DNA of 35,093 bases, taken from the NCBI GenBank assembly GCA_002172535.2, contig NHFF02000007.1, positions 33,887 through 68,979 on the forward strand, written 5' to 3'. Of the stretch, positions 24,453 to 25,183 are shown piece by piece. How positions within the stretch are numbered: position 1 is the first letter of the stretch; each line of letters starts with the position of its first letter. The translations under genes and the position numbers were made by a program. The stretch is from Gammaproteobacteria bacterium TMED104. GTDB taxonomy: Bacteria > Pseudomonadota > Gammaproteobacteria > Magnimaribacterales > D2472. The notes under the pieces are model-generated. The model was not told the origin of the DNA and ran no database searches. It worked only from the letters and a program-made list of their open reading frames with translations.

Positions 24453-24779
24453 ATGAAAAAAATTTTCTTATTCATCTTAATACTTATTGTGCAGCAGGAT
24501 TTGTTCGCAACAGAATCCTTAATTATAGACGTTAGAACTGACAATGAATGGAATAATGGTTTCATTGAAAATGCAAAACATATCCCGGTCAGTGAGTTAA
24601 AAAAAAGACTTAATGAAATTCAAGCATTTAAGGATCAACCTGTATTTACCTACTGTGCGGCTGGCAAAAGAGCTGAACGTGCTAAAAATTTGTTAATTGA
24701 AAATGGTTTTACCAATGTAATAAACTTAGGAGGCATCGAGGATGCTTCTAAAAAATTGGACAAAGATATTATTGAGTAA
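24453..24779 (+). CDS. Exported rhodanese-domain protein (PspE-like)
   Basis: 108 residues. Signal peptide MKKIFLFILILIVQQDLFA, then a rhodanese domain: IIDVRTDNEWNNGFIENAKHIP and the active loop YCAAGKRA with catalytic C68, followed by VINLGGIEDA. The size and export signal match periplasmic PspE-type thiosulphate sulphurtransferases. It has its own terminator with a T8 run just downstream (24799-24826). Confidence 0.86.
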   Translation: MKKIFLFILILIVQQDLFATESLIIDVRTDNEWNNGFIENAKHIPVSELKKRLNEIQAFKDQPVFTYCAAGKRAERAKNLLIENGFTNVINLGGIEDASKKLDKDIIE

Positions 24780-25017: not shown

Positions 25018-25068
25018 GCGTTCCTTCGGTATCATTACCTACTTCCGTCCTCTAAGAGGATGAACGAT
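25018..25068 (-). promoter_or_regulatory. Glutamine (glnA-type) riboswitch, gene-proximal copy
   Basis: Read on the minus strand it has the three-stem architecture of the glnA RNA: P1 CGTTC/GAACG closes the junction; P2 TCCTC/GAGGA; conserved GGACGGAAGTAGG, P3 GGTA/TACC, then CCGAAGGAACGC. The GGACGGAAGTAGG and GAAGGAACGC blocks match the published consensus as I remember it. It lies about 20 bases before the ATG of the 54-codon ORF. A GAAG/CTTC alternative pairing across its 3' edge (GAAGGAACGCTTC) may link ligand binding to the ribosome site; that is a guess. Confidence 0.85.
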
Positions 25069-25074
25069 GATAAT

Positions 25075-25126
25075 GCGTTCCTTCGTCTAAATTGACTACT
25101 TCCGTCCCAAGAATGGGATGAACGAT
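25075..25126 (-). promoter_or_regulatory. Glutamine (glnA-type) riboswitch, distal copy
   Basis: Second copy six bases upstream of the first in the same orientation. P1 CGTTC/GAACG and the conserved GGACGGAAGTAG and GAAGGAACGC blocks are the same, but P2 is TCCCA/TGGGA and P3 is GTC/GAC, so both stems differ in sequence yet still pair. This covariation supports a structured RNA. It begins on the base where the candidate promoter would start transcription. Confidence 0.85.
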
Positions 25127-25161: not shown

Positions 25162-25183
25162 AAAGTGATCAAATTTATGATCA
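25155..25183. repeat. Three TGATCA sites at helical spacing over the -35 region
   Basis: TGATCA occurs at 25155-25160, 25166-25171 and 25178-25183, spaced 11 and 12 bp, with a fourth at 25208-25213 inside the neighbouring gene. The first overlaps the -35 of the riboswitch transcript. A regulator binding one helix face is a possibility; AT-rich chance repetition is the alternative. Confidence 0.4.

Follow-up and report, generated by a model that had tools for sequence, protein, structure and literature searches.

On the minus strand of the window, the 35,093-nucleotide stretch of DNA analysed here, two glutamine-I aptamers stand directly before a 54-codon ORF (24998–24834) and probably feed one expression platform, a hairpin over the Shine-Dalgarno (SD) sequence through which translation of the ORF would be turned on. 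In the proposed mechanism, the 5′ leader senses glutamine and the 54-aa protein would be made when glutamine is high. The ORF, taken as the regulated gene, encodes a small basic protein ending KKDLFFPYYL and is preceded by the SD sequence AGGAG (25008–25004, minus strand). The aptamer class, its tandem occurrence and its marine distribution are known already, and both aptamers are members of this known kind; the host has not been emphasised before for a glutamine-I aptamer pair.

Architecture of the tandem aptamers

Scanned with cmscan against all Rfam families, the window yields exactly two minus-strand matches to RF01739 (glutamine-I, glnA); each is full length and far exceeds the gathering score of 35. 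Aptamer 1 occupies 25126–25072 (64.4 bits, E 3.3e-12), with P1 strands at 25124–25120 and 25080–25076, and aptamer 2 occupies 25068–25015 (62.4 bits, E 1.2e-11), with P1 strands at 25066–25062 and 25023–25019. The tandem glnA-type aptamers that an earlier note had proposed from the letters of this DNA are thus confirmed, and the Rfam glnA covariance-model search that it suggested is significant for both copies. Its second suggestion, the Downstream-peptide model (RF01704), stays below the gathering threshold on the window, and the aptamers belong to RF01739. The CGTTC/GAACG closing stems and the GGACGGAAGTAG and GAAGGAACGC blocks are present as that note described, as are P2 and P3 stems that differ between the two copies yet remain paired. 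Glutamine is the predicted ligand of both aptamers. The leader resembles other glutamine-I riboswitches in its conserved blocks, its three stems and the short gene downstream, whereas the host here is a heterotrophic gammaproteobacterium.

The base immediately 3′ of P1 is the equivalent of C60 in the crystal structure. In the bound RNA, C60 makes a long-range pair with G23; without ligand, G22 and G23 are disordered (PMC5393176). A cytosine available for this pair lies at 25075 in aptamer 1 (C60a) and at 25018 in aptamer 2 (C60b). C60a is also the first base of the inter-aptamer linker CATTATCAT (25075–25067, minus strand), which comprises the 9 nt between the two P1 stems and reads as C60a followed by AUUAUCAU. 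Additionally, the P3 arm of aptamer 2, GGUAAUGAUACC, spans 25039–25028 on the same strand.

A possible promoter, picked out by eye and unproven, combines TTGATC (25161–25156), a spacer of 17 nt and TAATAT (25138–25133) on the minus strand; it agrees with the consensus at 8 of 12 positions and would start the transcript just before aptamer 1. A promoter scan yields a different weak match at 25172–25143, which is not above chance. An intrinsic terminator was found neither in the window leader nor after the ORF; relatives in genus g9 have a hairpin and a T-run after the gene.

Host and distribution

The nearest named records of the ORF, at 94% identity, are the SAR86 cluster genomes AH-287-C22 and AH-324-F14, and the host belongs to SAR86, an uncultured group counted among the abundant bacteria of the surface ocean. 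Nitrogen sensing by SAR86 is, to our knowledge, little described. Contig stretches of these two genomes match the window at 79–93% in several blocks, and because one of the blocks spans both leader and ORF, the doublet is not an assembly accident. In the assembled genome (1.40 Mb, 36 contigs, estimated 71% complete), the doublet is the sole RF01739 occurrence.

RF01739 scores above threshold in 49 of 107 SAR86-family genomes, with matches in 8 of 10 genera, as against 3 of a class-wide sample of 369 genomes, one of the three being the window's own; as far as this sample goes, RF01739 within Gammaproteobacteria is therefore mainly a trait of the SAR86 order. Its stems and core are kept in the SAR86 relatives and in viral contigs, and the paired-stem conservation that the earlier note looked for holds when the locus is compared among related genomes. 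The reading of tandem glutamine aptamers before a short gene in a gammaproteobacterium is supported as well, the nearest named genomes being SAR86. The claim that such a find is notable has to be toned down, since tandem occurrence and marine cases outside cyanobacteria have been published and the aptamer is common within SAR86. Specifically, tandem glnA RNAs were noted in 2010 (PMC2864571), and marine non-cyanobacterial occurrences are known from metagenomes and from phages of SAR11 and OM43 (PMC9004378); in a 2018 review, the class was said to be confined to cyanobacteria (PMC6316151). Taxonomically, the find is a moderate surprise.

A probable single expression platform over the Shine-Dalgarno sequence

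The expression platform is a predicted hairpin, CUUCU-UAAAU-AGGAG (25018–25004, minus strand), that starts at C60b and sequesters the SD sequence. Without ligand, C60b would close this hairpin and keep AGGAG paired; with glutamine bound, C60b would pair with G23 inside the aptamer, so that the short hairpin below P1 loses its anchor and the ribosome site comes free. Because the ligand would take C60 out of the SD hairpin, the device is most likely a translational ON switch, a direction that agrees with cyanobacterial data, in which glutamine activates the class (PMC6316151).

Comparative sequence evidence supports the hairpin, with strong compensatory change in related leaders. All 11 small-ORF leaders that were folded (10 from the FFPYYL family and one from the divergent genome G014) have a hairpin that starts at C60 and overlaps the SD sequence, and SAR86 singlets before a 71-aa gene have the same C60-start hairpin with the stem CAUCUU..GGAGAUG. 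The wider comparative set joins 30 doublets of bacterial genomes to 74 of viral contigs, 104 distinct doublets in all, and contains 84 distinct downstream regions; seven of the viral doublet loci were confirmed by cmscan. At least five bases from C60 pair onto the SD region in about 69–70 of these 84 regions, against 34.4 ± 2.5 (maximum 42) of 84 when arms are swapped between leaders. Six sets of pairs occur, with both sides changing (CATC/GATG, CACC/GGTG, CAAT/ATTG, CACT/AGTG, CATT/AATG and CTTC/GGAG), the CTTC/GGAG set of the window sitting in a shifted register. Among the 14 of 84 regions in which the pairing is not found are the g3 leaders of glutamine synthetase and membrane proteins, those of DUF4278 proteins and two inner triplet aptamers. 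Together, the comparative and folding evidence indicates that one platform serves two aptamers. In g3, where doublets precede glutamine synthetase itself, an ON switch would constitute positive feedback; because the g3 leaders carry a different platform, the direction of the switch may vary between genes.

Possible coupling between the two aptamers

The 9-nt linker holds no terminator, SD sequence or start codon, and aptamer 1 is without an expression platform of its own. From C60a onward, the linker is complementary to the 5′ side of the aptamer 2 P3 arm (GGUAAUG, 25039–25033), and we propose that the two strands form a coupling helix, Pc. In this sequential relay, C60a and the linker would occupy the P3 arm of aptamer 2 until glutamine binds to aptamer 1, whereupon aptamer 2 would be set free to fold and bind in turn.

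Over distinct types, duplexes between the linker and P3 of aptamer 2 (P3b) average −3.93 kcal/mol, compared with −2.39 ± 0.21 for permuted combinations and −1.30 for the linker with P3 of aptamer 1 (P3a). In one fixed register, the linkers of 55 of the 104 distinct doublets pair with P3b over five bases. Counted by type, 9 of 36 pair at all five positions (permutation mean 3.5, maximum 8) and 0 of 63 do so with P3a; the permutations leave shared ancestry in, and the change between CATTG and CAATG may be one event. Moreover, in the covariation table both partners of the fifth pair change, A-U becoming G-C, and the matching base of the P3 stem changes with them; in one viral doublet, a U at position 60 is matched by an A. 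In the folded ensemble of the window leader, Pc has a probability of 0.97 and P3b one of 0.03, and P3b rises to 0.35 with P1a enforced and C60a masked; because P1b is near zero in every fold, nearest-neighbour energies model the aptamer poorly. A fifth or more of the doublets have no good Pc (linkers CCGAACT, CCACATT, CAAAAAT and others), and because P3 arms of SAR86 singlets often read GTAATRATAC as well, part of the linker–P3b complementarity may be background. The complementarity and covariation between linker and P3b favour a link between the aptamers, and the relay is plausible, with odds that are at best about even.

A published survey, which in 2022 counted 157 doublets and 4 triplets of glutamine riboswitches, treats the tandem forms as pseudo-cooperative, that is, as complete riboswitches in series (PMC9481103). 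The window leader is like that type in having two aptamers of the same class before one gene. It differs in that one SD hairpin stands for two aptamers, where pseudo-cooperativity asks for a platform per aptamer, and in that aptamer 1 appears wired to aptamer 2. Two independent complete switches, each with its own platform, are improbable here: the classification of the 157 doublets favours such a series, and some SAR86 doublets (g3, spacing 19) do have a longer segment able to hold structure, but in the window only nine nucleotides part the P1 stems, and the fixed-register pairing of linkers with P3b speaks against separate units. The earlier note's suggestion that tandem aptamers can give a steeper response is plausible, but the published explanation, two complete switches with own platforms, misfits this leader because aptamer 1 has no room for a platform. 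The arrangement also resembles the tandem glycine riboswitch in its two aptamers, single expression platform and possible cooperativity; the RNA is unrelated, and coupling here would run through the linker–P3 helix.

The same complementarity can be read as a stabilising tertiary contact, a P3-loop pseudoknot (CAUU:AAUG) formed in the bound state and giving true cooperative binding. Four of its pairs use P3 loop bases only, so P3 could stay folded; the covarying fifth pair, however, draws on a base of the P3 stem, and pairs six and seven would take the first two stem bases, which favours competition; in addition, the G23 pair of the bound state requires C60a. We consider this contact unlikely, if somewhat less so than a series of complete switches. 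Likewise improbable is that aptamer 1 is a duplication without a role of its own and that aptamer 2 regulates alone. There are SAR86 singlets that have this platform and presumably function by themselves, but RF01739 scores stay high for both copies, in SAR86 as in viral contigs, and the doublet with a linker starting CATTAT is conserved across five SAR86 genera and two small-protein families.

The 54-codon gene and its family

A profile search of 106 family genomes finds homologues of the ORF (52–54 aa, ending KKDxFFPYYL) in 11 SAR86 genomes, its own included, spread over three genera: the window's genus, g2 and g9. In all 11 the gene lies behind the doublet, and it occurs only there; one further weak match, in G037 (E 0.006), contains stop codons. 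Because of these homologues and because codon changes within the family are mostly synonymous or at the third position, the ORF is a real gene. It is also the only gene that the leader can control, since the gene after it, an ORF at 24453–24779 read as rhodanese-like, lies on the opposite strand.

The protein has no relative in NCBIfam or the PDB, and neither it nor two of its relatives matches Pfam, DUF4278 included; at the level of these three databases, it matches neither the glutamine synthetase inactivating factors (IF7/IF17) nor the DUF4278 family. No recognisable relative was found outside SAR86, and the family is absent from the viral contigs searched. By sequence comparison, the proteins ending KKDxFFPYYL appear as a new small-protein family. 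AlphaFold models the protein with a helix at 3–15, a long helix at 17–48 and a loose tail (pLDDT 74, pTM 0.38), a model too weak to base a fold search on.

The main targets of the class in cyanobacteria are DUF4278 proteins and the glutamine synthetase inactivating factor IF17 (PMC6316151). The SAR86 leader is like cyanobacterial gifB (IF17) and DUF4278 genes and their Downstream-peptide RNAs (RF01704) in that a small basic protein would be made at high glutamine; it differs in that the 54-aa protein has no Pfam DUF4278 match and its aptamers are RF01739. We propose that the protein acts as a glutamine-induced regulator of nitrogen assimilation, on a type II glutamine synthetase or a PII target, in a role analogous to that of cyanobacterial IF17. 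Each of the 14 SAR86 genomes tested has one glutamine synthetase, and GlnE is found in none of the 14; because of this, a glutamine-induced protein regulator is plausible. This role is nonetheless put forward tentatively, with a likelihood at or somewhat short of even. It has a nearly comparable rival, in which the small protein is no nitrogen regulator and is, for example, a phage-related or stress protein for which glutamine serves as a growth signal. The protein's lack of a match to DUF4278 or any other known family is in keeping with this rival, as are the viral contigs, in which other small proteins follow the same doublet and one of their families has a true relative in SAR86 (G014). Against it stand the cyanobacterial targets of the class, the DUF4278 proteins that follow the same doublet in other SAR86 genomes, and the missing GlnE.

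Genes behind SAR86 glutamine aptamers

The genes downstream of SAR86 RF01739 matches differ by genus. One of the doublets before DUF4278 proteins lies in the window's own genus (G048, with a Pfam score just under the cut-off). A replacement of DUF4278 by the window protein at the same locus was considered and rejected, as no window genes lie near the G048 locus. In g3, doublets 19 nt apart directly precede a type II-like glutamine synthetase (L034, L037, L039, L044, L046, L050), aptamer triplets precede a Gcw_chp outer-membrane protein (L035, L040, L043), and doublets precede a protein that by our own reading is TonB-dependent-receptor-like (L036, L041, L047, L049, L051). PII and GlnD are present in 12 of the 14 genomes tested and both missing in the two g3 genomes tested (G006, G010), an absence that could reflect incomplete assemblies, although these two are more than 90% complete. 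It is possible that in g3 RNA control replaces the PII cascade.

Singlets also occur. After nine of them (L055–L057, L059, L060, L063, L071, L073, L083), the next gene encodes a circularly permuted ATP-grasp protein (PF14403, about 480 aa); we know of no description of this association with the glutamine aptamer. In g5, singlets (L065, L067, L076, L079, L080, L084–L092) precede a 71-aa DUF4177-like protein, usually with a membrane protein next, and those leaders that were folded have a strong SD hairpin from C60. Two RF01739 aptamers (L064 and L072; 35.3 and 32.1 bits, both weak) are enlarged, their P3 arm measuring some 80 nt, and lie before YRG-repeat (DUF4278-like) proteins. Beyond the family, a type I-like glutamine synthetase follows the aptamers L097 and L099 (G137, from another family within the order), and glutamate synthase-like genes follow L095 and L098 (G392, from a different family within the class).

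Viral contigs with the same doublet

The doublet, the linker and the SD hairpin of the window leader recur in viral contigs. Their doublets precede ORFs of about 30 to 65 aa, with starts chosen automatically and some lengths uncertain. One viral small-protein family has the layout MTKYQ...RAVKK...DNPFYP, and some of its members have a YRG motif as in DUF4278; three loci (L132, L187, L206) combine the RAVKK/NPFYP features with this motif. At five others (L127, L131, L136, L154, L162), proteins of 33–35 aa of the MTMWTRYCRE type follow doublets joined by CATTATCAT; these and other phage small proteins have no match in named phage records. The viral contigs resemble the phage Melnitz and pelagiphage Mosig in carrying RF01739 in marine phages, but the riboswitches of those isolates are described with tmRNA genes (PMC9004378), whereas the viral contigs here have them before small-protein genes.

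By profile comparison, the SAR86 protein of G014 is a true distant member of the phage RAVKK family: hhalign gives 94% (E 1.8e-7) and hmmsearch 7e-6, where the best of 2000 shuffles reaches 0.006. Querying the viral contigs with the G014 protein did not recover the 54-aa family. Homology of the window ORF to the phage RAVKK proteins, suggested by a shared layout (central A-[VI]-K-K, aromatic-Pro end), was rejected: hhalign gives a probability of 0.9%, hmmsearch no match, and shuffled controls score better. The riboswitch module may have been exchanged between phages and SAR86. With somewhat less confidence than an even balance would allow, many marine glutamine doublets may be one device, in which aptamer 2 serves as the platform of aptamer 1, glutamine is sensed stepwise and a single SD hairpin gives the output, and which SAR86 and marine phages share as a module for driving several unrelated small proteins at high glutamine.

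Implications

The leader of the 54-aa gene is a short RNA in which sensors of a known class would share one on-switch, a design open to bench testing. If cooperativity is real, its source would be the nine-base linker, and a relay would change the classification of tandem glutamine riboswitches. The likely targets of the 54-aa protein, glutamine synthetase and PII, are directly assayable. Collectively, the presence of the aptamer in nearly half of the family's genomes and the absence of GlnE from all those tested point to RNA-based nitrogen control outside cyanobacteria.
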